Positions 3,211 through 15,805 of a stretch of DNA of 64,000 nt are shown here, piece by piece. Below the pieces are notes generated by a model. The model searched no databases. It had not been told where the DNA came from and saw nothing but the letters and a program-made list of their open reading frames with translations. How positions within the stretch are numbered: the first letter of the stretch is position 1; each line of letters starts with the position of its first letter. This stretch comes from Candidatus Tepidifontimicrobium thermophilum (lineage in GTDB: Bacteria; Sysuimicrobiota; Sysuimicrobiia; Sysuimicrobiales; Sysuimicrobiaceae), in assembly GCA_031296405.1 (NCBI GenBank), contig JAVKKH010000012.1, positions 1-64,000 on the forward strand, in the 5' to 3' direction. The position numbers and the translations under genes are program-made.

Positions 3211-4188
3211 CTAGTGGCGGCGGGAGACCACGAACTCCGTGAGGGCCGCCAAGCTGTCACGCTCCGGCCCTCCCGGAAGTGTCTCCAGGATGCGGAGCGC
3301 CCGCTGGGCGTGCTGCCGGGCCACCTCCAGGGCGTAGGCGAAGGACCCGGATGTCTCCAGGGCGTGCCGGAGCGGGGCCAGCTCGCCTGCCCGGATCCAC
3401 TTCTCCAGCCGCCGGCGCCCCTGCTCGTCCGCGTGGCGGAGCGCGTGGATCAAGGGCAGGGTGACCTTCCCTCCCCGGACGTCGCTGCCAATCGGCTTGC
3501 CTAGGACTTCCGGGTCGCTGGTGAGATCCAGGGTGTCGTCGGTGATCTGGAAGGCCACGCCCCAGTGCAGCCCGAAGGTGCCCAGCCGCTCCGCCAGATC
3601 CCCGTCCCCTCCCCCCACCAGCGCCCCTCCCGCGCACGCGGAGGACACCAGCTGGGCGGTCTTGCCTTCCACGATGGCAAAGTACACCGACTCGTCCGTG
3701 TGCGGGGTGTTGCCGTACTTGACCTGGAGCAGCTCCGCCTGGCTCATGCGCACGGTGGCGAAGGCCACCCGGCTCGCCACGTCGTCCCGCCCGACTCGGG
3801 AGAGCAGGTGGAAGGCCTTGCTGAACAGGTAGTCACCCAGCAACACCGCCACGTGGTTGCCCCACCGGGCGTTGGGCGTCGCCTGACCGCGCCGGCGGTC
3901 GGCCTCGTCGATCACGTCGTCGTGGATGAGGCTGGCCACGTGGATGAGCTCCACCGCCGCAGCCACCAGGTCACGGTGCGCCCCTCCCCCTCCTGCCAGG
4001 CGCGCGCACAGGAACGCCAGGGCCGGCCGCACCATCTTGCCGCGGGTATGCAGCACATGCGACACCAGCTCCATGAGGAAGGGGTCGTGGGCCGCCAGTT
4101 CCTGGCGCAGCAGGTCCTGCAGCCGCTCCAGGTCCTCGCGAACCGGGGCGTAGGCGGAGGCCAGGGCGTCTGCCGCGGCCTGCGTCAT
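3211..4188 (-). CDS. All-trans polyprenyl (heptaprenyl/octaprenyl-type) diphosphate synthase
   Basis: A 325-residue class I trans-prenyltransferase with the first aspartate-rich motif DDVIDEADRRR, the second motif DDTLD and the GNHVAVLLGDYL region. It adds isopentenyl units to an allylic diphosphate to make the isoprenoid tail of menaquinone or a related quinone; chain length cannot be read from sequence. The ATG at 4188 overlaps the stop of the upstream cytochrome c gene by 4 bases. It therefore appears to be the last gene of the respiratory cluster, consistent with supplying its quinone. Confidence 0.92.
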   Translation of the reverse strand: MTQAAADALASAYAPVREDLERLQDLLRQELAAHDPFLMELVSHVLHTRGKMVRPALAFLCARLAGGGGAHRDLVAAAVELIHVASLIHDDVIDEADRRRGQATPNARWGNHVAVLLGDYLFSKAFHLLSRVGRDDVASRVAFATVRMSQAELLQVKYGNTPHTDESVYFAIVEGKTAQLVSSACAGGALVGGGDGDLAERLGTFGLHWGVAFQITDDTLDLTSDPEVLGKPIGSDVRGGKVTLPLIHALRHADEQGRRRLEKWIRAGELAPLRHALETSGSFAYALEVARQHAQRALRILETLPGGPERDSLAALTEFVVSRRH

Positions 4189-4730
4189 GGCTGGCGGCCC
4201 AGCCGCCGGACGTACTCCACCAGGGCCCAGATCTGGTCGTCCGGTAGCTGGCCGAAGGCCGGCATCCCGCTGCGGCGGGGAGTGTTGCCCAGGCCGTTCT
4301 TGATCACCCAGTGGGTAGCGCCCACCGGCATCCGTTCCTGAAAGGCCCGGAAGTGGAAGTTGAGGGGTTTCGGGTTCAGGGCCGCGCCCGCGGGGCCGTC
4401 CCCGCGTCCCTCGGGTCCGTGGCACACCGCGCACAGGGTGTCGTACTGGGCCTTCGCCTGGGCCAGCATGGCGTCCGTCACCGGACGCGGGGGCTGGTCG
4501 TCCCTGGCGTCCTCCGGGACCACCGCCAGGATGCCCATCACGTGCTCGGAGCCGTCCGGCGCCGCGGCGGTGCCTGCAGAAACACCCTCCACGTTCCGCG
4601 CCACCGGCCTGATTTCCGGCTGCACCAGCCCGCCCGCCACGAACAGGTACGCCAGGGCCCACAAAGGCAGCAGCACGTACAGCGCCAGCAGCCAGCGGGA
4701 AGGCCTCGCGGTGGTCGTTTCGTTTCCCAT
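4185..4730 (-). CDS. Membrane-anchored monoheme cytochrome c
   Basis: A 181-residue protein with one N-terminal hydrophobic segment (about residues 13-32) and no obvious cleavage site, so probably an anchored c-type cytochrome facing outward. One heme site (CAVCHG) and a probable axial methionine in SGMPAF fit a class I cytochrome c fold. The start ATG at 4730 is preceded by AGGAGG. It follows the CcoO-like gene by 8 bases and may be the electron acceptor of the complex encoded upstream, taking a CcoP-like role with a single heme. Confidence 0.88.
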   Translation of the reverse strand: MGNETTTARPSRWLLALYVLLPLWALAYLFVAGGLVQPEIRPVARNVEGVSAGTAAAPDGSEHVMGILAVVPEDARDDQPPRPVTDAMLAQAKAQYDTLCAVCHGPEGRGDGPAGAALNPKPLNFHFRAFQERMPVGATHWVIKNGLGNTPRRSGMPAFGQLPDDQIWALVEYVRRLGRQP

Positions 4731-4738
4731 GTCGCCTC

Positions 4739-5197
4739 CTACCGCAGCGCCAGCAGGTACGCCACCAGGTCAGCCAGCTCCGCGTCCGAGAGGTACCGGT
4801 ACGAGGGCATGCCCCCCGTGCCCGACAGCAGCGCCGTCCGCAATTCCTGTCCCGAGGTACGCGCCCCTACCCTTGACAGGTCCGGCCCTAGGCGCAGCCG
4901 ACCCAGCAGCACGGGGTCCTGACCGGAGTACTGCTCCGCAGTTGAAGCCTGCCCCACGTCACCCGGCGCGCGCACCACGCCGAACCGGGCCTCCACCCCT
5001 CGCACCTGCTGGGTGTGGCAGACCACACACCCCTCCCTCACGTACACCCACCGCCCCCGCGCCGCCTGGGCTGACAGGGGCGCCGCCCGCGCGGTCCGGA
5101 CCGCAGGATCTAGGGCGGGCAGGAGGGCGGTCACCACAAACCCGCACACCACCGCGGCCACCACCAGCCGCCCTACAGCTCCCACGGCATCCCTCAC
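4739..5197 (-). CDS. CcoO/FixO-like monoheme cytochrome c
   Basis: A 152-residue protein with an N-terminal membrane helix and the heme site REGCVVCHTQQVRG. It then has segments aligning with CcoO of cbb3 oxidases (ASTAEQYSGQDPVLLG, LGPDLSRVG, GGMPSYRYL); the methionine in the last is the likely axial ligand. CcoO normally passes electrons to the binuclear centre of CcoN. Here the neighbouring CcoN-like protein lacks all metal ligands, so its role must differ. The start is GTG at 5197 with GGAGGTGG about 4 bases upstream. The protein is shorter than typical CcoO (about 200 residues). Confidence 0.85.
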   Translation of the reverse strand: MRDAVGAVGRLVVAAVVCGFVVTALLPALDPAVRTARAAPLSAQAARGRWVYVREGCVVCHTQQVRGVEARFGVVRAPGDVGQASTAEQYSGQDPVLLGRLRLGPDLSRVGARTSGQELRTALLSGTGGMPSYRYLSDAELADLVAYLLALR

Positions 5198-5232
5198 CGC
5201 ACCACCTCCAGGACCCACCGCCTGGCGCACTC

Positions 5233-6627
5233 CTAAGACCCCGCCACCGGCAGGAGCTCCTGCTCCGCTGCGGGAACCGGTTCCCCGGAGTCTGAGGTCA
5301 AGAACAGGTTCCACGCGAACACCGCCTGGCCGACCCACACCAGCAGAGCCGCGGCCCAGGCCACGGCCAGCAGGGGCCGGCTGGCCTGTACCGCGTGAGC
5401 GAAGGGCACCGTGCCCGTGGCCCAAGCCGCACCCTGGCTCAGACCCGCCAGCAGCAGCGCGGGCGCAGAGAGCGCCCACGCCACCACCACCAGCCACAGA
5501 TGCCGCCAGGCCAGGGCCCGGCTCGCTAGCGAGCGTCCCAGCACGTGTGGCGTCAGCAGGTACGCACACCCCACGGCCACCGCGGCACAGCCGCCCAGCA
5601 CCAGAACCCGCACCCCCTCTCCCCACAGGGAGAGGTGCACCACGCGGCTGGGACCCACGAGGGACGCCAGCGCGCTCAAAGACACGCCGGAGGTCAGCGC
5701 CAGCCAGCCCGCCAGCACGAAGACCACACCGGGGTGGTCCCCGAGGGACTGCCAGTGCCCTTCCAGCGACCGCGCGGCACCCACGAGCAGCGTCGCCACC
5801 GGCAACACCAGCAGCCCCTGCGCCACAGCGCCCACGGTCTGCACCCAGAACGGCACCGGACCCCACACGAACTCCGCGGGCCCAGCGAGAGCCCCGAAAC
5901 TGACCAGGCCGAACAGGGCGGCGAAGCCCACTCCCTCCGAAAGCCCGCGCCGGCCGGTCAGGGCCGACAGGACGTACAGGCAGACCCCACCGGCCAGCGG
6001 GACCCCCCATAGCCAGACCAGGCCTGCCCGCAGGAACGCCTGGCTCAGAGCGTCCAGGATCCCGTGGTAGGGGTTGTCGAAGGGCCAGAACAAGCCCTTC
6101 CCCAGTACTAGGACCAGAGGCAGCCCGGTGAAGCCCGCGAACACCAGGGCCAGCGCGGGGTCCCTACGGGGAGATCGGACGAGCGTGTTGCGAACCACCC
6201 ACAACAGAAGCAGCGCGCCCGCTAGCCGGAGCAGGTCCACCGGCCAGGGAGCCTCACCGAGCGGTCGGCCTCGGGTCCAGCCCGTGGAGATCCACCACCA
6301 GCTGAGCACCTGCGCCACAGTCCACAGCCACAGGCTCAGGTTCGCGAGGGGCTCGCTCCACAGCCCCTCCCGGTCGCCCTGTCCCACCACCCGCAGCGCC
6401 GCGCCCACCAGGAGGTGGGACAGGAAACCGAACACCCACAGGTCCTGTCCGGTGGCCACCACCCGCCCGTGGGACACCCAGGGGACGTCCGCGAGGACCT
6501 GCGGCCAGGCCCGCTGCGCGGCGGCCAGCGCCTCGTAGGCCAGCGCCAGGATCCCCCACAGCGCGCCCGCGTACAGGAACCGCCGGACGGAGCTCCATCG
6601 CTCGTCGGTGAACATCCACGCCAGCAT
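5233..6627 (-). CDS. CcoN-like cbb3 oxidase subunit I homologue lacking all heme/CuB histidines
   Basis: A 464-residue polytopic protein of about 12 helices. It aligns from end to end with CcoN: WGILALAYEALAAAQRAWP, WPVDLLR, AGPAEFVWGPVPFWVQTVG and SQGAAWATG have direct CcoN counterparts. The catalytic ligands are gone. The low-spin heme histidine of RPLHTN is G60. The CuB histidine of WYGHN is A201. The CuB pair AGPHH is A251-E252. The heme ligand pair HVH is G338-V-R340. The frame is intact and followed by a CcoO-like gene, so it appears selected as a protein but cannot be an oxygen reductase. It may be a structural or quinone-binding subunit. The alignment was made by eye from memory of CcoN. 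Confidence 0.8.
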   Translation of the reverse strand: MLAWMFTDERWSSVRRFLYAGALWGILALAYEALAAAQRAWPQVLADVPWVSHGRVVATGQDLWVFGFLSHLLVGAALRVVGQGDREGLWSEPLANLSLWLWTVAQVLSWWWISTGWTRGRPLGEAPWPVDLLRLAGALLLLWVVRNTLVRSPRRDPALALVFAGFTGLPLVLVLGKGLFWPFDNPYHGILDALSQAFLRAGLVWLWGVPLAGGVCLYVLSALTGRRGLSEGVGFAALFGLVSFGALAGPAEFVWGPVPFWVQTVGAVAQGLLVLPVATLLVGAARSLEGHWQSLGDHPGVVFVLAGWLALTSGVSLSALASLVGPSRVVHLSLWGEGVRVLVLGGCAAVAVGCAYLLTPHVLGRSLASRALAWRHLWLVVVAWALSAPALLLAGLSQGAAWATGTVPFAHAVQASRPLLAVAWAAALLVWVGQAVFAWNLFLTSDSGEPVPAAEQELLPVAGS

Positions 6628-6642
6628 CCCGTGTCCCTTCCG

Positions 6643-6759
6643 CTACGCCTCCGCCACCAGACCGAAGGCCGCCACGAACAGCAACAGGGCAAAGAACACC
6701 AGGTAGAACAGGGCGTACCACAGGTACGTCTTCCACCGTTTCGGGCCAAACCGCGTCAC
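6643..6759 (-). CDS. Small single-helix membrane protein (38 aa) of the respiratory cluster
   Basis: A short gene reading VTRFGPKRWKTYLWYALFYL and continuing with a strongly hydrophobic stretch to LVAEA. Start GTG at 6759 overlaps the stop of the FlpD-like gene by 4 bases, and GGAGGGAAGCG precedes it, so translation is well supported. It has one transmembrane helix with a positively charged N-terminus. It sits directly before the CcoN-like gene. In position and shape it recalls the tiny accessory subunits of heme-copper oxidases (CcoQ/CcoH-like), but no homology is claimed. Confidence 0.7.
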   Translation of the reverse strand: MTRFGPKRWKTYLWYALFYLVFFALLLFVAAFGLVAEA

Positions 6760-7187
6760 CGCTTCCCTCCGGATCCGCGCACCCGGTCCACGAACTCCGC
6801 CACCGCGCGCAGGAAGTCCTCCCGCTCGTGCAGGCCGAAGGCAAAGAACGCGACCCGCTCAGGGTCCACCTTCTGCCGGCTCAAACGCTTCCGCAGCTGG
6901 TCGATGCGATCCTCCATGATCCAGTTGCCTTCCCGGTTGAGGCAGTCCCCCATGGGGCAACCGCACACGAAGGCGCCCGCGGCGCCGCTGCGCAGCGCCA
7001 GCTCCAACCACCCGGGCTTGACGAACCCTGAGCAGGGGACCCGGATCACCGTGACATGCGGCATGCCTACCAGGGTGTCGTCGGCGCTCAGGAGCCCCTC
7101 GCTGCGTACCGCCCAGTCGCACAGGAACCCCACGACCCGGGGGGCTGCCTCCTCCGCCTGCGGGGTCCGATCCGGTACCGTCGCCAT
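6756..7187 (-). CDS. FlpD/MvhD-type iron-sulfur protein (hydrogenase delta-subunit family)
   Basis: A 143-residue cytoplasmic protein of the FlpD family (PF02662): VVGFLCDW, RVPCSGFV, FVCGCPMGDC and the following EGNW. Five cysteines are conserved (C23, C52, C75, C77, C82). The second cysteine of the usual CNWC motif is replaced by alanine. In methanogens the family links F420-non-reducing hydrogenase to heterodisulfide reductase through a [2Fe-2S] cluster. Here no hydrogenase or HdrA is nearby; it lies between a ferredoxin-fused cytochrome b and the CcoN-like gene, so it probably connects the membrane complex to a soluble redox partner. Confidence 0.85.
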   Translation of the reverse strand: MATVPDRTPQAEEAAPRVVGFLCDWAVRSEGLLSADDTLVGMPHVTVIRVPCSGFVKPGWLELALRSGAAGAFVCGCPMGDCLNREGNWIMEDRIDQLRKRLSRQKVDPERVAFFAFGLHEREDFLRAVAEFVDRVRGSGGKR

Positions 7188-7197
7188 GGCTCTCGCC

Positions 7198-8373
7198 TCA
7201 GGAACCCACCGGGGCCGCGGCGCGTGCGCCCCGCTGGATGCGCTGCTGTACGTCTTTGTCCAGCATCCTCGGCAACTCCAGGGCCTCGAAGGGGCAGGCG
7301 CCGATACAGATCCCGCACTCCACGCACCGGGAGTCCACCACCACTGCCAGCAGCTTCCGGTTGGCCGCAGCCCGGCTCTTCCCCGGGTACGGGCTCGGCA
7401 CCATGTAGATGGCGTTGTACGGGCAGTCGTAGTAGCACAGCTCGCAGCCCGTGCAGTTCTCCTCCACCACCACCGCCTGGCCCAAGGCCCGGACGCCCCG
7501 CTGCTCCGGAGTCTCCCGCAGGGTGTAGGGGACCACCATGCCGTATGCCACCAGGGCCACCACCAGGGCCAGGGCCCAACCGGGCGCCAGCCAGCGGGCC
7601 AGCACGTACGGCCACAGGAAGAACCAGTCCACCGCGAACCCCTCCGGCGAGGCGCCCGGCTGCGCCGGCCGTCCGCTCGTGGCGGGCAAGGCGGAAGCGA
7701 GGATGAACAGCAGGCCCAGGCTGAACAGCACCCACACGGAGGGGGGCCAGATCTTGGGGTGGCGGAGGCGCACGTAGTGCCACCACAGGAGTACGTACAG
7801 GGTCATGGCGGGCCCCACGTGGAGGAACAGGAACCGCGGCAGGGTGGTGTCGCTCACCCCGGGGCCCCCCAGGAATACCCGGGCGAGCCGGTCTCCCACC
7901 AGGGGGACGGACCTCAGGGCCTGTACCGTGAGGCTCGTCAGCAGCTGCGACCGCTCGTCCCACACCAACAGGTAGCCGGTGAAGCCCGCGAAGCCCGACA
8001 CCACCAGCAGGAACATCCCCGACAGCCACTGGCTGTCCCGGGCCTCCCGGTAGCGGTCCGTGAACCAGTTCCGGAACAGGTGCAGGAGGATGGCCACCAG
8101 GTACGCGTCCGCGGCGTAGCGGTGGATCCCGCGGAACACGACCCCGTAGGGCACGTCGCGGGTGAGGAACTCCACCGAGGCGTAGGCGCCCTCCAGGCTC
8201 GGCTCGTAGTACAGGAAGATGAGGATCCCCGACACCACCAGGATGGTGAGGAACAGGTTCGACAGCCCCCCGGTGTAGTACAGGGGGTTGAAGTCCTGCG
8301 GCAGGACGCGGTTGATCCAGGTGTCCAACCGCAGGGTGGCACTCTGCAGGCTCAGCAACAACCGCCGGTACAC
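7198..8373 (-). CDS. Cytochrome b (#2) fused to a C-terminal 2[4Fe-4S] ferredoxin domain
   Basis: A 391-residue protein. Residues about 30-290 form a Rieske-type cytochrome b with both heme pairs complete: H84/H98 in helix B and H185/H199 in helix D, each 14 apart. The Qo motif (PEWY in relatives) reads VDWF. Residues 307-317 (CTGCELCYYDC) and 350-360 (CVECGICIGAC) are two classical CxxCxxCxxxC sites for [4Fe-4S] clusters on the cytoplasmic side. It can thus carry electrons from the quinone site to clusters near the FlpD protein encoded 10 bases downstream. The start is GTG at 8373, one base after the upstream stop. Confidence 0.9.
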   Translation of the reverse strand: MYRRLLLSLQSATLRLDTWINRVLPQDFNPLYYTGGLSNLFLTILVVSGILIFLYYEPSLEGAYASVEFLTRDVPYGVVFRGIHRYAADAYLVAILLHLFRNWFTDRYREARDSQWLSGMFLLVVSGFAGFTGYLLVWDERSQLLTSLTVQALRSVPLVGDRLARVFLGGPGVSDTTLPRFLFLHVGPAMTLYVLLWWHYVRLRHPKIWPPSVWVLFSLGLLFILASALPATSGRPAQPGASPEGFAVDWFFLWPYVLARWLAPGWALALVVALVAYGMVVPYTLRETPEQRGVRALGQAVVVEENCTGCELCYYDCPYNAIYMVPSPYPGKSRAAANRKLLAVVVDSRCVECGICIGACPFEALELPRMLDKDVQQRIQRGARAAAPVGS

Positions 8374-8374
8374 C

Positions 8375-8578
8375 CTAGTCCTCCGCGGTGAGGTGCGCCT
8401 TGCGGAACAGCACCACGATGACGGCGTACAGCACCAGCAGCACGCCCACGGCTCCCGAGGCCACCAGGCGCCGGTCGAACCACTCCCCGTACACCATCAG
8501 GCCGACGCACGCCAGGGCCAGTACCGCCAGAAAGCCCGCCACCGCCAGGTACCAGCCGCCGCGCTCTGGCTCCCTCAC
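8375..8578 (-). CDS. Small two-helix membrane protein (67 aa), unknown
   Basis: A 67-residue protein with two transmembrane segments separated by YGEWFDRR and a short basic-acidic C-terminus. The GTG start at 8578 overlaps the upstream stop by 4 bases, with GGGAGGTGG in front. No family is recognised. Its position between the two cytochrome b genes suggests a small subunit of the same complex. In b6f-type complexes the C-terminal helices of cytochrome b can be encoded separately, but both cytochrome b proteins here appear complete. Confidence 0.7.
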   Translation of the reverse strand: MREPERGGWYLAVAGFLAVLALACVGLMVYGEWFDRRLVASGAVGVLLVLYAVIVVLFRKAHLTAED

Positions 8579-8838
8579 GGCCACCTCCCGCCTCGCTGGA
8601 AAGCCAGCCAGCGCTCGTACACCGCGACCCGTCGACGCACCCGGCCCGCCCGGCGGTCCGCGGCGTACAGCAGGTAGCCCGCCCACGCGGCCGAGACCAC
8701 CAGCACCGCCAGCCACCCGGCCGCCACAAGCCACCGCTCCGGCTGGGGCTGTACCCACGCCAGGCGCGCCGCCTGCCAGGTGCCGTGCAGGCCTGCTACC
8801 GCCAGGCCGAAAGCCATCCCGAACCGGACCGCCTCCAC
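8575..8838 (-). CDS. Small two-helix membrane protein (87 aa), unknown
   Basis: An 87-residue protein with two hydrophobic segments (about residues 7-25 and 37-58), then a basic tail rich in arginine (AADRRAGRVRRRVAVYERW) that should lie in the cytoplasm. Start GTG at 8838 lies 4 bases after the stop of cytochrome b #1. No known family is recognised. The basic cytoplasmic tail could contact the soluble iron-sulfur proteins; that is inference from position only. Confidence 0.65.
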   Translation of the reverse strand: MEAVRFGMAFGLAVAGLHGTWQAARLAWVQPQPERWLVAAGWLAVLVVSAAWAGYLLYAADRRAGRVRRRVAVYERWLAFQRGGRWP

Positions 8839-8842
8839 CGCC

Positions 8843-9991
8843 TCACCCCACCGTCGCCCGGGCCGGCGCGGCCCGCGGCGCCGGGGCCGGCGCGGCGGCC
8901 TCTGCGAGCTTCCTCCGCCGGCGGTAACGGAACTCCAACACCAGGCCCAGACCCAGGGTGGCGGCGGTGACCAGCAGGACCACGTGCGGGTCCCTCCCGA
9001 TCACGGCGATGTTGAACATGATGAGAGCGGTGAACACCAGGAAGTAGGTCAGGGCCATAATTCCCACCACGGTGAAGAAGGGGCGCTCGGACGGCCTGCG
9101 GCCCTTGCTGCGGTCGAGGAACGGCACCAGCATCCCGTACGCGATCAGCAGACCCGGCCCCAGCCCGGCCCACAGGGGCGGGGTGTACTTCACGTACTGG
9201 TACAGCGCCAGGAAGTACCAGTCGGAAAGGATCGGGAGCGGCGTCCGGTTGGGGTCGGCCCGCCGGCCCATCTCCGCGGGGAACACGTAGCTGGTGACCA
9301 CCAGCATGAGGGCCAGGATCACCAAAGCGGTGGGGGACAACACGAACCGGCGCCGCCGGGTGAAGTAGAAGTAGATCTCCGCCGCCACCAGCAGCAGGGC
9401 CGAGATGCCGAAGTGGATGGCGTAGAAGCGCGTGAGAGTCCCCTGCCCTTCCGCGGGCCCACCCAGGAAGGCGAAGGCGATGGCGCTGCCGAACCGCGTC
9501 TGCCCGATGAGGGGCAGCTCATCCAGGTACACCGCCACCGTGAGGACTACCTTCGCCGCCCAGAAGGCCCGCTGGTTCCAGATCAGCAGGTACCCCGTGA
9601 GGCCGGAGATCATGGCCAGCACCAGGGAGCCGAACAGGATCATCCACGACAGCTCGTTGGGCCGCTTGTACTCGCCCAGGAAGTACATCCGGTAGATGCG
9701 CAGGGTGATGGCGAGGATCAGCATGTCCGCGCCGTACTTGTGCACCCCGCGGATCAGCCAGCCCAAGGGGACCTCGTGCTGGATGCGGAGGATGGAGTTG
9801 TAGGCGCCGTGGGTGGTGGGCTCGTACCAGATCATGAGCAGGATCCCGCTCACCACCACCGCGATCCACGCGAAGTACACGATCTGACCGAGGAGGTAGA
9901 GGGGGTTGTCCTGGCGGTCGACCTGGGTCTCGTCGAAAAGGTCCAGCTTCTCCTTGCGCTCCCGGAACCACTCCCGCAACCGGTCCCACAT
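8843..9991 (-). CDS. Cytochrome b (#1) of a Rieske/cytochrome b complex, bH heme ligands missing
   Basis: A 382-residue protein that co-linearly matches cytochrome b: GWLIRGVHKYGADM, SGLTGYLLIWNQRAFWA, TLTRFYAIHF, and a Qo motif reading LSDWYFLALY. The low-potential (bL) ligands H84 and H193 are present. Their bH partners 14 residues on are R98 and Y207; position 208 is phenylalanine, so the b6-type 15-residue spacing does not rescue it. It would therefore bind only one b heme. It has extra C-terminal helices and an Ala/Pro/Arg-rich tail. It follows the Rieske gene by 12 bases, so it is the more likely direct Rieske partner. Confidence 0.9.
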   Translation of the reverse strand: MWDRLREWFRERKEKLDLFDETQVDRQDNPLYLLGQIVYFAWIAVVVSGILLMIWYEPTTHGAYNSILRIQHEVPLGWLIRGVHKYGADMLILAITLRIYRMYFLGEYKRPNELSWMILFGSLVLAMISGLTGYLLIWNQRAFWAAKVVLTVAVYLDELPLIGQTRFGSAIAFAFLGGPAEGQGTLTRFYAIHFGISALLLVAAEIYFYFTRRRRFVLSPTALVILALMLVVTSYVFPAEMGRRADPNRTPLPILSDWYFLALYQYVKYTPPLWAGLGPGLLIAYGMLVPFLDRSKGRRPSERPFFTVVGIMALTYFLVFTALIMFNIAVIGRDPHVVLLVTAATLGLGLVLEFRYRRRRKLAEAAAPAPAPRAAPARATVG

Positions 9992-10003
9992 CGCTCCGGC
10001 TCC

Positions 10004-10648
10004 CTAGGCGATCCCGCCGGGCTCGGCGCCCGTCACCACGATGACCCCGTCGCGGATCTCGTAGGTGAAGTAGCGGGGGGGCCGGGGCGCGGGTCCCGAC
10101 AGCACCCGGCCGGGCACCTCCCGGTCCGCGGGGTCGTAGATGGACAGGTGGCAGGGGCAGGCCATGAGGCCGTGGCGACGTTCCTCCGGCGGCACGTACC
10201 CGCCGTAGCCCGCCGTGACCTCCCGCCAGTTCGGCACGTAGTTGAAGATGCAGCCCAGGTGCGGGCAGATGCGGGAGAACACCACGATGTCCGTGGGCTC
10301 CTTCCCGGCCTTGTAGCCGGGGAAGCTCAACTTCCACGGCAGCTTGATGGCCACCCCGGGGACCGTGGCCGCCTTGGCCAGCTCCGGCGTGTACTGCGGG
10401 TACTTCTGGGTGAACACGAAGAACTTGCTGGACCAGGGCTCGCGCAGCTCCTCCAGGGTGGCGATGGGGAGCGGCTCCCCCTTCGGGAGGTCCCCCTCCG
10501 CGAGGTCCGGGGGCACCTTCCCCTGGGGAACCCCCAGCCCCGGCTCCAGGTTCGGCTTCAGGTAGCGCAGCACCGGCGCCAGGAAGGCGCCGAGACCCCC
10601 CAGCACCGGCACCGCACTCAGCGCCTTGAGGAACGTCCGACGGTTCAC
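10004..10648 (-). CDS. Rieske [2Fe-2S] protein with Tat signal
   Basis: A 214-residue Rieske protein. The N-terminus MNRRTFLKAL followed by a hydrophobic helix is a twin-arginine signal that probably stays as a membrane anchor. The cluster ligands are C128/H130 and C164/H167; C133 and C166 can form the usual disulfide (CPHLGC and CPCHLS). It oxidises quinol at the Qo site of cytochrome b and passes one electron to a cytochrome c. The GTG start at 10648 sits downstream of the diheme cytochrome gene. TatA, needed for export, is encoded at 607-774. Confidence 0.95.
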   Translation of the reverse strand: MNRRTFLKALSAVPVLGGLGAFLAPVLRYLKPNLEPGLGVPQGKVPPDLAEGDLPKGEPLPIATLEELREPWSSKFFVFTQKYPQYTPELAKAATVPGVAIKLPWKLSFPGYKAGKEPTDIVVFSRICPHLGCIFNYVPNWREVTAGYGGYVPPEERRHGLMACPCHLSIYDPADREVPGRVLSGPAPRPPRYFTYEIRDGVIVVTGAEPGGIA

Positions 10649-10676
10649 AGCCCCGCCTCCGTTGCCGCACCCGCAG

Positions 10677-11579
10677 CTAGCGCAGGTCCTGCGGCGGCGT
10701 GTACACGAACGTCCACAGGTACTCTACCACGCTCCAGATCTGGTCCGCCGAGAGCTTGCCCGCGTAGGCGGGCATGAGCTCCAGCCCGCGCCGCTGCACT
10801 CCCTCCGCGATCTTCTGGTACAGCTCCGTGGGCTTCCGGTAGGCCATCCAGTCCCGGTCCGTGAAGATCCCCGGCCCCACACCCCGCGCCCACGTCCACA
10901 CCTGCTCGCGGATCCGGGCGGCCTCGGGACCGTTCCCGTCGCCCGCCACCCCGTGGCAGCTGGCGCACAGCTGGTTGTAGATCCGCCTTCCCTGTGCCAG
11001 CCGGTCCCGGCTCGTGGTCCGGCTCCACTCCCAGAACAGCACGTCCCAGATCTGTTCGTCCGTAAGGCGCGGATCACCCCCATCCACGGCACCGTAGGCG
11101 GGATGCTGGAAGCCGGGCATGGCAGTGTGGGGCCGGCCCCGGGCGATAGTCTCGAACAGGGCGAACGGCGCGTTCAACCGCATCTGGTCCAGGTTGTTGA
11201 AGCGGGCGGGCCGACTCGGCAGCGGCTCGGTCTTGGGGTGGATGCGGAACAGGCTCAAGAAGTCCGTGTACGGGTTTTTCTCCGGAGCGGTCAGCTGCTC
11301 CGCCATGGGGCCGTCCCCACGGCCCTCGGGCCCGTGGCACACCGCGCAGCGCGCCTCGTAGATCTTGCGGCCCTCGTCCGCGCTGGGCTTGCGGGGCATG
11401 AAGTTCATGCGCACCACGAACCCTTCCAGGGGCTGGTAGGCCTCCCTGGCGGGGGTGCTCACCCCGACGTACGGCTGGCAGCCCGCGAGGCCGAGAATCG
11501 CCGCCACCAGCAGCAACAACCCGCCGGCCCCCCCGCGGGGCCGCCGGCCGCACAGGGGTCCGGCTTGCCGTCGGTGCAA
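10677..11579 (-). CDS. Diheme cytochrome c lipoprotein
   Basis: A 300-residue protein with a lipoprotein signal ending in the lipobox LAGC, then two class I heme sites, CAVCHGPEGRGDGP and CASCHGVAGDGNGP. Candidate axial methionines lie in TAMPGF and ELMPAYAG. It is the first gene of the respiratory cluster and probably accepts electrons from the Rieske protein outside the membrane. The start is TTG at 11579 because GGGAGGCAGG lies immediately upstream and the signal peptide begins properly there; in-frame sequence further upstream has no fitting start. Confidence 0.9.
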   Translation of the reverse strand: MHRRQAGPLCGRRPRGGAGGLLLLVAAILGLAGCQPYVGVSTPAREAYQPLEGFVVRMNFMPRKPSADEGRKIYEARCAVCHGPEGRGDGPMAEQLTAPEKNPYTDFLSLFRIHPKTEPLPSRPARFNNLDQMRLNAPFALFETIARGRPHTAMPGFQHPAYGAVDGGDPRLTDEQIWDVLFWEWSRTTSRDRLAQGRRIYNQLCASCHGVAGDGNGPEAARIREQVWTWARGVGPGIFTDRDWMAYRKPTELYQKIAEGVQRRGLELMPAYAGKLSADQIWSVVEYLWTFVYTPPQDLR

Positions 11580-11660
11580 CCTGCCTCCCGAATCAAAAAT
11601 GAGCTGGCGTGTCTTTTTGACTTCCGATGCCCGGACTCCTCTTCGGCCTGCACACGCAAA

Positions 11661-11682
11661 GAGGGAGCCTCTCGGCCCCCTC
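11661..11682 (-). terminator. Hairpin between ccmE and the respiratory operon (terminator or leader attenuator)
   Basis: Minus-strand GAGGGGGCC-GAGA-GGCTCCCTC folds into a stem of about 9 pairs with one mismatch and is followed by TTTGCG. It could terminate the ccm operon ending at 11770. It also lies downstream of a candidate promoter at 11701-11730, so it may act within the leader of the respiratory operon. Confidence 0.4.
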
Positions 11683-11700
11683 CGTGAAGGTCCGGCCACG

Positions 11701-11730
11701 ATTTTCCGTGCCCCGATCCGAGCCCGTCAA
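11701..11730 (-). promoter_or_regulatory. Candidate promoter of the respiratory cluster
   Basis: On the minus strand, -35 TTGACG (11725-11730), an 18-base spacer and -10 GAAAAT (11701-11706). This would give a leader of about 115 bases before the TTG start at 11579, containing the hairpin at 11661-11682. Confidence 0.45.
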
Positions 11731-11769
11731 GCGCTTCCGGTCCGTGGACGCCGGGCCAGCCGCGCTGGC

Positions 11770-12180
11770 TCAGGGCGCGTTCCGCTCCGCGGGTGGCAAC
11801 GGAGAGCGGGGTGGAGTGTACTCCTCCGAGTGCTTCACCACCACGCTGCGGGCCTCCAGGGTTCCGTCCGGCCCCAGCCGGCCTTCCACCACCGCGCCCT
11901 GCCCTTCCACCAGCAGCCCCTCCACGCTGCCCGCAAACCGCACCGGCAGCCGGGCCTGCCCGTCGGACAGCACGAAGCGCAGCGCACCGCCCTCTCGCCG
12001 GAGGGAGCCGGGTACTACCTGTCCGCCGACCCGCACCGGCCGTCGGGGGTCCAGGGTCCTGGACTGCAGCTCCGTGGGCGTCACGTAGTACACCACCGCC
12101 TCCCGGAGCCCGCCGGCCACCACGTAGCCCAGGGAACCCACCACCAGCAACACCGCGGCAGCAAGCCGTAGGCGCTTCAC
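11770..12180 (-). CDS. ccmE: Cytochrome c-type biogenesis heme chaperone CcmE
   Basis: A 136-residue protein with one N-terminal membrane helix and an OB-fold domain. The conserved heme-binding motif reads VVKHSEEYTPP: the histidine binds heme covalently and the tyrosine lies four residues on. CcmE takes heme from CcmABCD and hands it to CcmF. The start is GTG at 12180, overlapping the ccmD stop by 4 bases. CcmF, CcmG and CcmH are not in the window. Confidence 0.93.
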   Translation of the reverse strand: MKRLRLAAAVLLVVGSLGYVVAGGLREAVVYYVTPTELQSRTLDPRRPVRVGGQVVPGSLRREGGALRFVLSDGQARLPVRFAGSVEGLLVEGQGAVVEGRLGPDGTLEARSVVVKHSEEYTPPRSPLPPAERNAP

Positions 12181-12305
12181 GTCTCCCCCTCTCCCAGCCT
12201 GGCCCTGGACACCTGCCGCAAGCGGCGCCACAGGCGCCAGGCGTAAACGCCCACCAGCAGGGCGGCGCAGCCGTACGCGGTTAGTACCCACGCCCAGGGG
12301 CTCAA
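12177..12305 (-). CDS. ccmD: CcmD-like heme exporter subunit
   Basis: A 42-residue protein reading LSPWAWVLTAYGCAALL, then an aromatic/basic stretch (YAWRLWRRLRQ). It has one membrane helix followed by a charged cytoplasmic tail, the typical CcmD layout including the AYG motif. CcmD helps release holo-CcmE from CcmABC. The TTG start at 12305 overlaps the ccmC stop by 4 bases and is preceded by GGAGGGGG. Size and position between ccmC and ccmE support the call. Confidence 0.8.
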   Translation of the reverse strand: MSPWAWVLTAYGCAALLVGVYAWRLWRRLRQVSRARLGEGET

Positions 12306-12940
12306 CGTTCCCCCTCCAGACTCGCGAGGCGCGCCCGTTCGGCCAGCAGCACACTCAGCAGGGCCAGGTAGGCCACGGCGTTCACCGCCAGCGGCAGGAG
12401 GAACTCCGGCGCCAACTTCACACCCTGCAGGCTGATGGACGGGCCCTGGTGCAGGGTCCGGAACCACACCACCGAGTAGTGGACCACCGGCACGTCCAGG
12501 AAGGCCAGCACCGCCACCGCCGCGGACAGCCTCCGGCCCCGCTCGGGGTCGTCCGCGAGATCTCGGACCAGCAGGCAGCCCACGTACAGCAGGAACAGCA
12601 CCGCGGTGGTGACCAGCCGGGCGTCCCACGCCCACCACACGCCCCACACGGGCTTTCCCCAGAGCATCCCGGTGAGGAGGGTCAGCCCGGAGAACAGGGC
12701 CGCTAGCTCCGCGCCCGCGCGCCCGACGAAGTCCCACCGCCGGTCGCGCCGCCACAGGTACAGGGCACCAGCCCCGAAGGCCACCGCGGCGGCCCCGTAG
12801 GCGCTTACCGCCGCAGGGACGTGCACGTACATGATCCGTACGTACTCGCCCTGGTAGGCGTCCGGGGGGGAGCCCCACAGGGCCAGGAACAGGCCCACGC
12901 TCAACAGCGCCGCAGTCCCTCCCACCGCGAACGCCCGCAA
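12302..12940 (-). CDS. ccmC: Heme transporter subunit CcmC
   Basis: A 212-residue protein with six membrane segments and the tryptophan-rich WWD motif WGVWWAWDARL. Flanking histidines lie in YVHVPA and PVVHYSVVWFRTLHQ, as in CcmC. It loads heme onto CcmE at the outer face of the membrane. The TTG start at 12940 is inferred from GGAGGGG five bases upstream; no ATG or GTG fits without overlapping ccmB. It is two bases downstream of the ccmB stop. Confidence 0.92.
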   Translation of the reverse strand: MRAFAVGGTAALLSVGLFLALWGSPPDAYQGEYVRIMYVHVPAAVSAYGAAAVAFGAGALYLWRRDRRWDFVGRAGAELAALFSGLTLLTGMLWGKPVWGVWWAWDARLVTTAVLFLLYVGCLLVRDLADDPERGRRLSAAVAVLAFLDVPVVHYSVVWFRTLHQGPSISLQGVKLAPEFLLPLAVNAVAYLALLSVLLAERARLASLEGER

Positions 12941-12942
12941 GC

Positions 12943-13596
12943 CTACCCCTCCACCACCAGCTCGAACAGGACGGGGCCCACCAGCAAAAACAGGAGGTCG
13001 AACACCACCAGCACGCCCCACCACGGGCCCGCAGGCGCTCCGGAGGCCGCGGTCTCGGAAAGCCGCACTCCCGCCAGCAACACGGGAACCGTGGCGGGCA
13101 GGAACAGAAGGGGCATCAGCAACGGTCCTGCCCGCACGTGGGCCACCAGCGCGGCCAGCAACGTGCCCGCCGCGCCGAGCCCCGCTGTAGCCAACAGGGC
13201 CGCCAGGATCAGCACGCCCGCCCCGCGGGTTGGAGCGTCAAACAGGAGAACCTGCGCGCACCACAGTCCCGCAGCCAGGACCAGCAGCACCACGCACAGA
13301 GCCAGCCACCTTCCCCAGAACAGGTCCTCGCGGCTGCCGGGGTACAGCAGCAGCACCTCCCGGGTCCCCTCCTCTCCTTCCCGGTCCGCACCGCGTCCTG
13401 CCGCCAGCACTGCCGCCAGGAGGACGGACACCCACAGCGCCGACGGTGCGGCTTCCCCCCCACCTCCGGACACCAGCCCTAGCACCAGCAGGACTGCGAA
13501 GCCGAAGCTGCCCGCGGGGAGCACCGCGTCGCGCCCGCGCCACTCCAGGAGAAGGTCCTTGCGGGCCACGGCCGCCACCCGCCGCCATGCCTTCAT
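12943..13596 (-). CDS. ccmB: Heme exporter permease CcmB
   Basis: A 217-residue, six-helix protein beginning MKAWRRVAAVARKDLLLEWRGRD, the usual CcmB start, with EGTREVLLLYPGSREDLFWGR near the first cytoplasmic loop. Together with CcmA and CcmC it forms the ABC module that drives release of holo-CcmE. The ATG start at 13596 overlaps the ccmA stop by 4 bases. Confidence 0.9.
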   Translation of the reverse strand: MKAWRRVAAVARKDLLLEWRGRDAVLPAGSFGFAVLLVLGLVSGGGGEAAPSALWVSVLLAAVLAAGRGADREGEEGTREVLLLYPGSREDLFWGRWLALCVVLLVLAAGLWCAQVLLFDAPTRGAGVLILAALLATAGLGAAGTLLAALVAHVRAGPLLMPLLFLPATVPVLLAGVRLSETAASGAPAGPWWGVLVVFDLLFLLVGPVLFELVVEG

Positions 13597-14273
13597 CCCC
13601 GGCTCACTGCTCCTGCGAGCCCCGCGGTTCCCGAGCTCAGCAGCGTGCCCGACTCCAGTTCTGCCACCGCGTCGCACACGGCCCGGGCGCGGTGCCGGTC
13701 GTGGGTGGCCAGGACCACCGCGCCTTTCTGCTTCTTGATCCCCGTCACCAGCTCGCCCACCAGCCGGGTCCCCTCCTCGTCCAGACCCACGAAGGGCTCG
13801 TCCAAGAGCAGGACCCGGGGCTCTTGCAAACGGACCCGCGCCAGGGCGAGCCGCCGCCGCATGCCGAGGCTGTAAGTGCGTACCAGCCTGTGGGCCACCT
13901 GCTCCAGCCCGGCCCACCCCAGCAGCTCCGCAACCTGCCGCCGGGGCCGGCCACACAGGTCCGCGGCCAGGCACAGGTTCTCGAACCCGGTGAGGCCCGC
14001 GTACACGCCTGGGGACGTCCCCAGGAAAGCGCACAGTTCCCGCACCCGGTGACCCTCCGAGACCACGTCGTAGCCGCACACCCACGCGCGGCCCTCCGTA
14101 GGGCGCAAGGCCGTGGCCAGCACCCGAAGCAGGGTGGTCTTGCCGGACCCGTTGGGGCCCAACAGCAGCAGACACGTGCCCTCCCCGACCCGGAGTCCCA
14201 CGCCCCGCAGGGCCACCACGGCCCCGAACCGCCGGCCCAGGGCGTCCGTCACCACGGGGTCTAGCGGCCGCAC
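13593..14273 (-). CDS. ccmA: Heme exporter ATP-binding protein CcmA
   Basis: A 226-residue ABC ATPase with Walker A GPNGSGKTT, a signature region reading YSLGMRRRLALAR, Walker B VLLLDEPFVGLD and H-loop ATHD. CcmA powers heme handling by CcmBCDE. Order ccmA-B-C-D-E in one strand with overlaps identifies it among ABC proteins. The start at 14273 overlaps the upstream bshC-like gene by 13 bases. Confidence 0.9.
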   Translation of the reverse strand: MRPLDPVVTDALGRRFGAVVALRGVGLRVGEGTCLLLLGPNGSGKTTLLRVLATALRPTEGRAWVCGYDVVSEGHRVRELCAFLGTSPGVYAGLTGFENLCLAADLCGRPRRQVAELLGWAGLEQVAHRLVRTYSLGMRRRLALARVRLQEPRVLLLDEPFVGLDEEGTRLVGELVTGIKKQKGAVVLATHDRHRARAVCDAVAELESGTLLSSGTAGLAGAVSRG

Positions 14274-15805
14274 CGAACTCCCTCCTGCGCCCGCAACGGC
14301 GCGCAGACCTCCTCGGGGTCGAACAGGAAGAAGGGGTAGCCTCGGTCCGCGGCGACCTCGTGTTCCTGCACCTCCCGCCGCAACGCCTCCAGCTCCGCCT
14401 CCACTTCAGCGATCCGGTCCTGCACGTGGGCCCGCAAAGCCTCGTTGATGGCCCGGATGCGCCGGGCGAGCTCCCGGCGGGCGGACCGGGTCAGGTCCGC
14501 GGCCTCCAGAGCCCGGATGCAGCGCCACTTTTCCTCCACCAGGGGACGCGCCTGGGCGGGGTCGGCCAGGTGGCGGTCCGGGTTGTGCTGCAGGTCCAGC
14601 CACAGACGCTGCGCAGCCCCGTACGCCTCCCGGGGATCTGCGTGTCGCGCCAGCGGGAGATGGAAGGTGGCCGTGAGGACCGCGAAGGGCGGCGGTGTGA
14701 CTCCGAAGAACTCCTCTAGGACCCGGTCGGTGACGCGGTCGTAGCGCGCGCCTCCCACGCCGTGCACGAACAGATCCGCCACCAGAAGCCGCAGGAACAG
14801 GGTGAGGGTGAGGGCCCTGGGGCGCAGGCCCTCCAGCCCACGGTCCGTGAGCTCGCCTACGGGCCTGCCCTCGCAGAACACCACGGGAGGAGCTCCGGGC
14901 CGCACGAATACCGGCCGCCGCTTCCCCTCCCGCACCAGCCAGAAGGGCAACTCCACCCAGTCGCCTTCCCGCCGTAGGTTGGGGAACGGCTGCGCCGGGG
15001 AGCGCAGGCCCTGCTGCCGGCGGTACTCGTCCAGGGCCGCGTTGTGGCAGGCGCGAAAACGCTCCGCATCCTGGGCGATCCAGGCGGCGAACTGGCCGAA
15101 GGCCTGCGTCTCCGACAGCTCGGATACGGTCACCTCCCAGTAGCGGACCTGCCGGTGCTTCGTCTCCAACCGTCTGCGCAGGCCGGCCCCGAAATCGCCC
15201 AGGTGCCGCGCGCGGGAGAGGCTTTCCAGGCCCGCCTGCTCTGCCCGGGAGACCCGCTCCAGGAGCTCCGGGAGACCGAGGGTCCCGAGGTCGTCCCGTA
15301 GCTGTGCGCAGAAAGCCCGCCAGCGGGCCTCCTCGGGTACCGGGGCTGCCTCGAAGGGAACACCGTCGCCGCACTCCACGAGGGTCCGCTGCACCCCCTG
15401 CAGCGTCCCGTCCCGCCTCGGGACTCGGGCACCCCAGGACTGGCACTCGTCGGAGTCCACCACCACGTGCAGCCCGGTCGCCCCCTGGCCCGCGCAGATG
15501 TCCACGGCCCACGTCTTGATCCAGATCCCCGGGTGATACAGGCCGGGCTGGTGGCCGGTGGCGACCCACGGACCGTGGGAGGCCTCAGGGGGCGCGAAGC
15601 CCCAGCGGCCCAGCAGGGCCTGGGCCCGTCCCACGAGCTCGGACCGGGCCTGCGCCCGCAGAGCGCTCAGGGGCCGGCCGAAGACGCTTGCTGCGTCCAG
15701 CCGCCGGGCGGTGGCTTCCGCCAGCTCCAGCCAACGGCTGAACTCAGGCGTGCAGAGGACCTCGCCGTGGCGCGTGGGGATGGACAGCTCGGTCACGTCG
15801 GTCAC
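14261..15805 (-). CDS. BshC-like bacillithiol biosynthesis protein (putative cysteine-adding enzyme)
   Basis: A 514-residue protein. The N-terminal Rossmann-like region has VATGHQPGLYHPGIWIKTW, close to the TGHQPG/TGQQPG motif of BshC. LHVVVDSDECQSWG sits where BshC has its DEDH-type motif. A long C-terminal coiled coil (about residues 440-495, Arg/Glu-rich) is also a BshC feature. BshC joins cysteine to glucosaminyl-malate in bacillithiol synthesis. The neighbouring deacetylase supports this; similarity is distant, so the exact thiol product is uncertain. GTG start at 15805, with GTGA overlap. Confidence 0.6.
   Translation of the reverse strand: MTDVTELSIPTRHGEVLCTPEFSRWLELAEATARRLDAASVFGRPLSALRAQARSELVGRAQALLGRWGFAPPEASHGPWVATGHQPGLYHPGIWIKTWAVDICAGQGATGLHVVVDSDECQSWGARVPRRDGTLQGVQRTLVECGDGVPFEAAPVPEEARWRAFCAQLRDDLGTLGLPELLERVSRAEQAGLESLSRARHLGDFGAGLRRRLETKHRQVRYWEVTVSELSETQAFGQFAAWIAQDAERFRACHNAALDEYRRQQGLRSPAQPFPNLRREGDWVELPFWLVREGKRRPVFVRPGAPPVVFCEGRPVGELTDRGLEGLRPRALTLTLFLRLLVADLFVHGVGGARYDRVTDRVLEEFFGVTPPPFAVLTATFHLPLARHADPREAYGAAQRLWLDLQHNPDRHLADPAQARPLVEEKWRCIRALEAADLTRSARRELARRIRAINEALRAHVQDRIAEVEAELEALRREVQEHEVAADRGYPFFLFDPEEVCAPLRAQEGVRCGR

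Follow-up and report, generated by a model that had tools for sequence, protein, structure and literature searches.

How does a Rieske/cytochrome b enzyme work when one of its two cytochromes b lacks the histidines for a haem and the other carries a ferredoxin domain? The question is raised by a stretch of 64,000 nucleotides from Candidatus Tepidifontimicrobium thermophilum (assembly GCA_031296405.1, contig JAVKKH010000012.1, positions 1 to 64,000; hereafter the window). Cytochrome b #1 (cb1; 8843–9991, − strand; 382 amino acids) has ligands for the low-potential haem (bL) only, together with a conserved quinol oxidation (Qo) site. Cytochrome b #2 (cb2; 7198–8373, − strand; 391 amino acids) has all four haem ligands and a fused C-terminal 2[4Fe–4S] ferredoxin domain. 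We found that the loss of the ligands of the high-potential haem (bH) in cb1 is accompanied by a reciprocal change at Qo in cb2.

A first-pass annotation of the window had placed H84 and H193 of cb1 at the bL sites, R98 and Y207 at its bH sites, and four ligand histidines (H84/H98 and H185/H199) in cb2. All of these residues were confirmed on the − strand, with the cb1 codons at 9740–9742 (H84, bL), 9698–9700 (R98, first bH position), 9413–9415 (H193, bL) and 9371–9373 (Y207, second bH position, the counterpart of H212 in Rhodobacter capsulatus by alignment to 1zrt_C) and the cb2 codons at 8122–8124 (H84, bL), 8080–8082 (H98, bH), 7819–7821 (H185, bL) and 7777–7779 (H199, bH), the roles in cb2 again being assigned by alignment. 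When cb1 was compared with cytochrome b6 of known structure using HMMER (best E value 4.5e-34), H84 matched the first histidine in helix B and H193 the first in helix D, and R98 took the place of the bH ligand in helix B. We then aligned 90 rows jointly (26 cb1, 31 cb2 and 33 ordinary cytochromes b); the four ligand columns coincide in this alignment, from which the bL assignments of H84 and H193 were also read. These columns read HHHH in 31/31 cb2 and 33/33 ordinary rows; in cb1 they read HRHY in 17 rows, HRHF in 5, HRHL in 2, and HRHM and HKHY in 1 each. This alignment and the tree described below draw on 31 of the 79 named loci and omit rows in which the best stretch found by phmmer failed to cover helices A–D (cb1 of L061, L063, L066, L067, L077, L102 and L107, cb2 of L037 and ordinary L168). 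L049 has no cb2, and the ordinary set was taken from the top matches to the cb1 profile rather than at random.

The wider set of orthologues gave the same result. A scan of named genomes took in 80 of 94 relatives, and 79 named cb1 loci were kept; counts over 79 or 72 loci, and over pairs, include the rows omitted from the joint alignment. Position 98 is arginine in 71 of the 79 and lysine in the other 8, and position 207 is tyrosine in 64, phenylalanine in 9, leucine in 4 and methionine in 1, with 1 gap, so that R/K occupies 98 in 79/79, Y/F/L/M occupies 207 in 78/79 and histidine occurs at neither. As the spacing of the helix D ligands is 14 or 15 residues depending on the subfamily, we also inspected the 15-step alternative, position 208, and found no histidine in any of the 79 loci (F in 72, I in 3, Y in 2, V in 1 and 1 gap). 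With no other histidine within reach in helices B or D of cb1, a misplaced alignment is ruled out. Nor does histidine appear at position 98 or 207 in any of 108 fetched cb1 sequences, one of which ends before 207; named and unnamed records overlap in that set, and the 79 named loci are the better sample size. The gene is under purifying selection, with nonsynonymous and synonymous divergences (dN/dS) of 0.014/0.232 against L033, 0.019/0.404 against L034 and 0.044/0.481 against L050. Together, the 108 sequences without histidine and the purifying selection rule out sequencing error, chance or a pseudogene, and the loss of the bH ligands in cb1 is practically certain. In cb2 the ligands are retained: among 72 loci, H98 is present in 71 and H185 and H199 in 70, the remainder being gaps. 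Position 205 of cb1 is glutamate in 26/26 rows, a residue that is absent from those listed for 31/31 cb2 and 29/33 ordinary rows. We do not claim an R98–E205 salt bridge filling the bH pocket, because E205 lies two residues before 207 and, by helix geometry, off the haem face.

To read the Qo site, we placed R. capsulatus cytochrome b (1zrt_C numbering) on the joint alignment. The first-pass annotation had described the Qo region of cb1 as well conserved, and this holds: cb1 carries the GYLLIWNQRAFWA stretch as well as TPLPILSDWYF, which is found in 77/79 loci, the other two being cut or non-matching. SDWY within it (residues 256–259; 9215–9226, − strand) is the counterpart of the PEWY motif, which reads PEWY or PEWF in 9/10 ordinary full-length loci scanned. 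The position of R. capsulatus W157 is tryptophan in 26/26 cb1, in 0/31 cb2 and in 25/33 ordinary rows (7 F and 1 E in the others). At the G158 position, in helix cd1, all 26 cb1 rows have alanine (A145 in the window; codon 9557–9559, − strand), as do 32 of the ordinary rows (the other has glycine), and the 31 cb2 rows have a bulky residue: leucine in 22 (L145 in the window; codon 7939–7941, − strand), isoleucine in 7 and valine in 2. R193 is kept in 25/26 cb1, 17/31 cb2 and 33/33 ordinary rows. The H212 position shows the opposite pattern, with Y in 18, F in 5, L in 2 and M in 1 of the cb1 rows and histidine in every cb2 and ordinary row. Paired loci number 72, and cb1 has A145 in all of them; three with gaps leave 69 complete pairs, and in 69/69 of these cb1 has no bH ligands and has Ala145 while cb2 has both bH ligands and L, I or V at 145. 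These substitutions are strong evidence that the cd1 part of the Qo site has degenerated in cb2. The asymmetry that the first-pass annotation had read from this pair thus stands in that the bH ligands are lost in cb1 alone and that cb1 is constantly paired with a ferredoxin-bearing cb2; what it had overlooked is the degeneration on the Qo side of cb2. Because the asymmetry is reciprocal, the bL-to-bL route is more compelling than was originally argued.

Both proteins belong to the cytochrome b family. They score above the Pfam Cytochrome_B cut-off, with matches to PF00033 (2.6e-29) and PF00032 (1.4e-07) for cb1 and to PF00033 (8.2e-31) and Fer4 (3.6e-11) for cb2. AlphaFold2 models (mean predicted local distance difference test scores of 79.9 for cb1 and 75.4 for cb2, with the ferredoxin part weak) matched the fold of cytochrome b 8smr_D with Z 24.7, root mean square deviation (rmsd) 3.4 and 316 aligned residues for cb1, and Z 22.7, rmsd 2.8 and 257 aligned for cb2. 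The sequence places cb1 as a cytochrome b by descent, although not a canonical dihaem one. Like the b6f and b6c complexes, the pair has cytochrome b6 as its best relative by sequence in the Protein Data Bank (PDB), and the C-terminal portion of cb1 aligns with subunit IV; unlike in b6f, the b6 and subunit IV parts are unsplit within the one cb1 open reading frame (ORF), and unlike in b6f and b6c there is no haem ci cysteine in either protein and there are no bH ligands in cb1. In the tree, one branch (100/99) separates cb1 from all other rows and another (100/100) does so for cb2; the two groups stand together against ordinary cytochromes b (100/97), with a long-branch warning. An origin of the two by one duplication is plausible from these sequences; it is not settled, because of the long-branch warning and because leaving out cb1 or cb2 moves the remaining group to a different place.

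The cofactor sites of the iron–sulphur proteins in the operon are also retained. The ferredoxin domain of cb2 (Cys 307–360; 7294–7455, − strand) has two CX2CX2CX3C motifs, and both are present in 68/72 loci (one motif in 1 locus and none in 3, truncated rows included). The next gene encodes an FlpD (MvhD-type) [2Fe–2S] protein (6756–7187, − strand; PF02662, 1.6e-25, 89.9 bits against a cut-off of 22.3), in which cysteines 23, 52, 77 and 82 are kept in 69 rows, with one X at C52. Upstream of cb1 lies a Rieske protein with a twin-arginine translocation (TAT)-like signal (10004–10648, − strand); its match to TIGR01416 (2.4e-09) is below the curated cut-off, and its CxHxxC and CxCH ligand residues are present in 80/80 rows. 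As in other Rieske/cytochrome b (bc) complexes, the operon thus combines Rieske CxH and CxCH ligands with the cytochrome b fold and sequence; it differs from them in that cb1 lacks the set of four haem-ligand histidines that cb2 has.

The order Rieske–cb1–cb2 with 2[4Fe–4S]–FlpD is kept wherever contigs reach. The gene for cb2 lies downstream of cb1 in 72/79 named loci, and the remaining 7 stop at a contig edge; Rieske lies upstream in 78/79, the single miss starting at a contig edge; and FlpD is found in 68 of the 72 loci that have cb2, with the 4 misses again at contig edges. The 79 loci come from records named CSP1-3, 'Armatimonadetes' or ANGP1 and from Melainabacteria/Vampirovibrionia, with a few under other names. 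The phylum of the CSP1-3/'Armatimonadetes'/ANGP1 records has been named Sysuimicrobiota (PMC11604079). L033 and L034 are the named loci closest to the window, at 97% identity, and L049 is a record named CSP1-3; both suggest a Sysuimicrobiota origin for the window. Matches to cb1 at an E value of 1e-3 occur in 49/61 genomes, ordinary cytochromes b included. A profile search of 386 genomes gave 148 with a match at 1e-20; beyond the order of the window, a true cb1 orthologue was found only in genome G151 (4e-134), and the next best match (1.7e-54) is a protein with four histidines. G151 has the same operon with the same missing ligands, and its phylum is represented by four genomes in the searched set. 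The presence of the operon in such distant lineages would fit transfer, and the genes for complexes III and IV in Melainabacteria are described as closest to non-cyanobacterial ones (PMC8235220). In L068, L071, L110 and other Obscuribacterales-type loci, the cb1 ORF has a C-terminal extension and runs to about 600–670 codons, compared with 382 in the window.

We suggest that cb1 and cb2 probably form a Rieske/cytochrome b heterodimer that is asymmetric and in which bL–bL transfer is obligatory. The two would be halves of one dimer and divide its work. Quinol would be oxidised at the Qo site of cb1; one electron would pass via the Rieske protein to cytochrome c and from there to an oxidase, and the other from bL of cb1 to bL of cb2 and then to bH of cb2. 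The crossing would be needed because cb1 has no other evident exit, if the two do pair. From bH of cb2, electrons would continue by way of the clusters in the ferredoxin domain and then that of FlpD to an acceptor in the cytoplasm; by the usual topology, both the ferredoxin domain and FlpD would lie beyond that haem, on the negative (N) side. With one bH and one Qo removed, all low-potential electrons would be gathered at a single N-side port, from which we infer that outflow is the likeliest direction; that low-potential electrons leave through the ferredoxin/FlpD arm to the cytoplasm seems to us a nearly even call. The retained cofactor residues in Rieske and FlpD and the constant 1:1 synteny of cb1 and cb2 speak for this scheme. 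Its boldest form is a naturally cross-inactivated heterodimer with bL–bL as the sole route, in which quinol oxidation pulled by respiration would push electrons through ferredoxin and FlpD into the cytoplasm, a quinone-based electron bifurcation yielding low-potential reductant; we consider this somewhat less likely than not. If it is true, a Q-cycle enzyme has been turned into a source of cytoplasmic reductant, including in non-photosynthetic relatives of Cyanobacteria.

The closest precedent is an engineered one. In a fused Rhodobacter bc1 dimer (B–B, BS–B), G158W inactivates Qo in one half and H212N the bH branch in the other, so that only the bL–bL bridge joins the working Qo and bH; transfer across it was reported on the millisecond scale (PMC4330944). 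The natural pair similarly has a non-ligand at H212 in one half (cb1) and a bulky residue at G158 in the other (cb2). It differs in being natural and encoded by separate genes, in having L, I or V at 158 and Y, F, L or M at 212 together with R or K at the other bH ligand, and in carrying the ferredoxin/FlpD arm. As bL–bL crossing in bc dimers has been debated on evidence from engineered mutants (PMC4330944), a conserved natural family with no other evident electron route, if cb1 and cb2 pair, offers a natural enzyme for testing inter-monomer transfer.

Several points weigh against the heterodimer as we propose it. That cb1 and cb2 share one dimer is read from their genes. The L/I/V substitution in cb2 is a milder change than G158W, and the ef loop of cb2 is partly kept (of 70 rows, DW[FLY][FY] in 46, another D.F-type sequence in 19 and neither in 5), so some Qo activity in cb2 is possible. 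The helix-C glycine near bH is only partly lost from cb1, with Gly kept in 22 and Ala present in 36 of the 79 loci; for this reason we do not use its loss as proof of an empty bH pocket. Transfer between the bL haems has itself been disputed (Hong et al., as stated in PMC4330944). Finally, the operon contains no gene for a flavoprotein or other FlpD partner.

Among alternatives, the same asymmetric dimer could use the arm as an inlet, with low-potential electrons from the cytoplasm entering at bH of cb2, joining the electron from Qo of cb1 and reducing quinone at the single quinone reduction (Qi) site. A similar entry of electrons has been proposed for cyclic flow into b6f. Either direction is compatible with the arm and the single bH, and the partial complex I described in Melainabacteria has the potential to use ferredoxin (PMC6349859). 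We nevertheless regard an inlet as unlikely. It does not require the loss of Qo in cb2. Furthermore, haem ci is the usual partner in the cyclic-flow proposal, and its cysteine is present in 0/26 cb1 and 0/31 cb2 rows, compared with 18/33 ordinary rows.

A dimer of the same composition might also run an ordinary Q-cycle, with one Qo in cb1 and one Qi in cb2, the ferredoxin domain and FlpD serving only to sense redox state or to hold other proteins. Nothing needed for one Qo and one bH is lacking, but the cluster ligands of both iron–sulphur proteins are kept across lineages, beyond what a scaffold needs, which makes this rather doubtful. It is improbable that cb1 and cb2 form separate homodimers, or that cb1 with Rieske is a bL-only quinol oxidase and cb2 an independent ferredoxin:quinone enzyme. 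Each protein does have the cytochrome b fold; the operon, however, has a single Rieske gene, the adjacency of the two is invariant, the changes are complementary in all 69 complete pairs, and a dimer of two cb1 chains would leave the second electron without an evident way out. Least credible is a cb1 that still binds haem at bH through Tyr207, or Lys98 in some loci: tyrosine and lysine are able to bind haem iron and are found there in 64/79 and 8/79 loci, but with F, L or M at 207 in 14/79 and arginine at 98 in 71/79 there is no conserved alternative ligand.

The heterodimer that we favour can be set beside several known systems. In the anammox bacterium Kuenenia stuttgartiensis, Rieske/b complexes have been proposed to send one quinol electron to NAD(P) (PMC12954380). 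They share with the present operon iron–sulphur proteins on the N side and a proposed cytoplasmic acceptor. The model in that report, however, is a homodimer whose haems are bP, bN and cN, together with a flavin NAD(P) oxidoreductase, whereas the operon here encodes two dissimilar cytochromes b that lack the haem ci cysteine, with a ferredoxin fused to cb2 and FlpD in place of the flavoprotein. No flavoprotein NAD(P) oxidoreductase was found among nine operon proteins scanned against Pfam and NCBIfam. The FlpD domain has the four conserved cysteines of the MvhD/FlpD subunits of methyl-viologen hydrogenase and HdrA systems; unlike in those, no hydrogenase or Hdr gene is in the operon and the neighbour of FlpD is a cytochrome b. 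In Melainabacteria, a cluster of petB and petC beside a C-type oxidase has been called a combination or fusion of complexes III and IV (CIII/CIV; PMC6349859); this is the same group of organisms, and the available text of that report mentions neither a second cytochrome b nor missing ligands, a ferredoxin domain or FlpD. The 'heterodimeric cytochrome b' of PMC6606698 is cytochrome bd. Our literature searches found no description of the cb1/cb2 pair, of which there may be prior notice.

The genome (2.4 Mb, 38 contigs) contains no further cytochrome b over the PF13631 cut-off, which also counts in favour of the proposed complex. Its HdrA-like gene sits away from the operon at G000:C8, in a DsrE/Hdr/Etf cluster, and this grouping leaves it no clear candidate as a partner of FlpD. 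That cluster (L184, about 5000–15800) encodes DsrE, HdrC-, HdrB- and HdrA-like, Etf and HdrD-like proteins and resembles the Hdr systems of sulphur oxidation. NuoF-like genes are also present in the genome.

The operon is one run of genes: dihaem cytochrome c (10677–11699, − strand; PF00034, 3.8e-22, in two stretches), Rieske, cb1, a small membrane protein, cb2 and FlpD, followed by a CcoN-like protein, a CcoO-like cytochrome c and another cytochrome c. In Vampirovibrionia, CcoN and CcoO usually precede the run. The small membrane protein between cb1 and cb2 (8375–8758, − strand) has no Pfam or NCBIfam match, and some relatives encode weak homologues of it; in Vampirovibrio this gap holds two small proteins, compared with one in the window. 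All six haem and copper histidines of the CcoN-like subunit (5233–6627, − strand) are lost in the window and in L033, L034, L036 and L050, and are kept in the 51 other rows of a 56-row alignment. The histidine-less subunit may be an inactive oxidase that persists as a scaffold or partner. There are three other haem–copper oxidase-type genes in the genome (G000:C33:66208-67602, C1:86980-88296 and C37:87014-88327), so reduction of oxygen or NO need not rely on the ligand-less one. In most Sysuimicrobiota loci the operon is followed by a polyprenyl diphosphate synthase-like gene (3257–4203 in the window, − strand; labelled by sequence reading), which perhaps has a role in quinone side chains.

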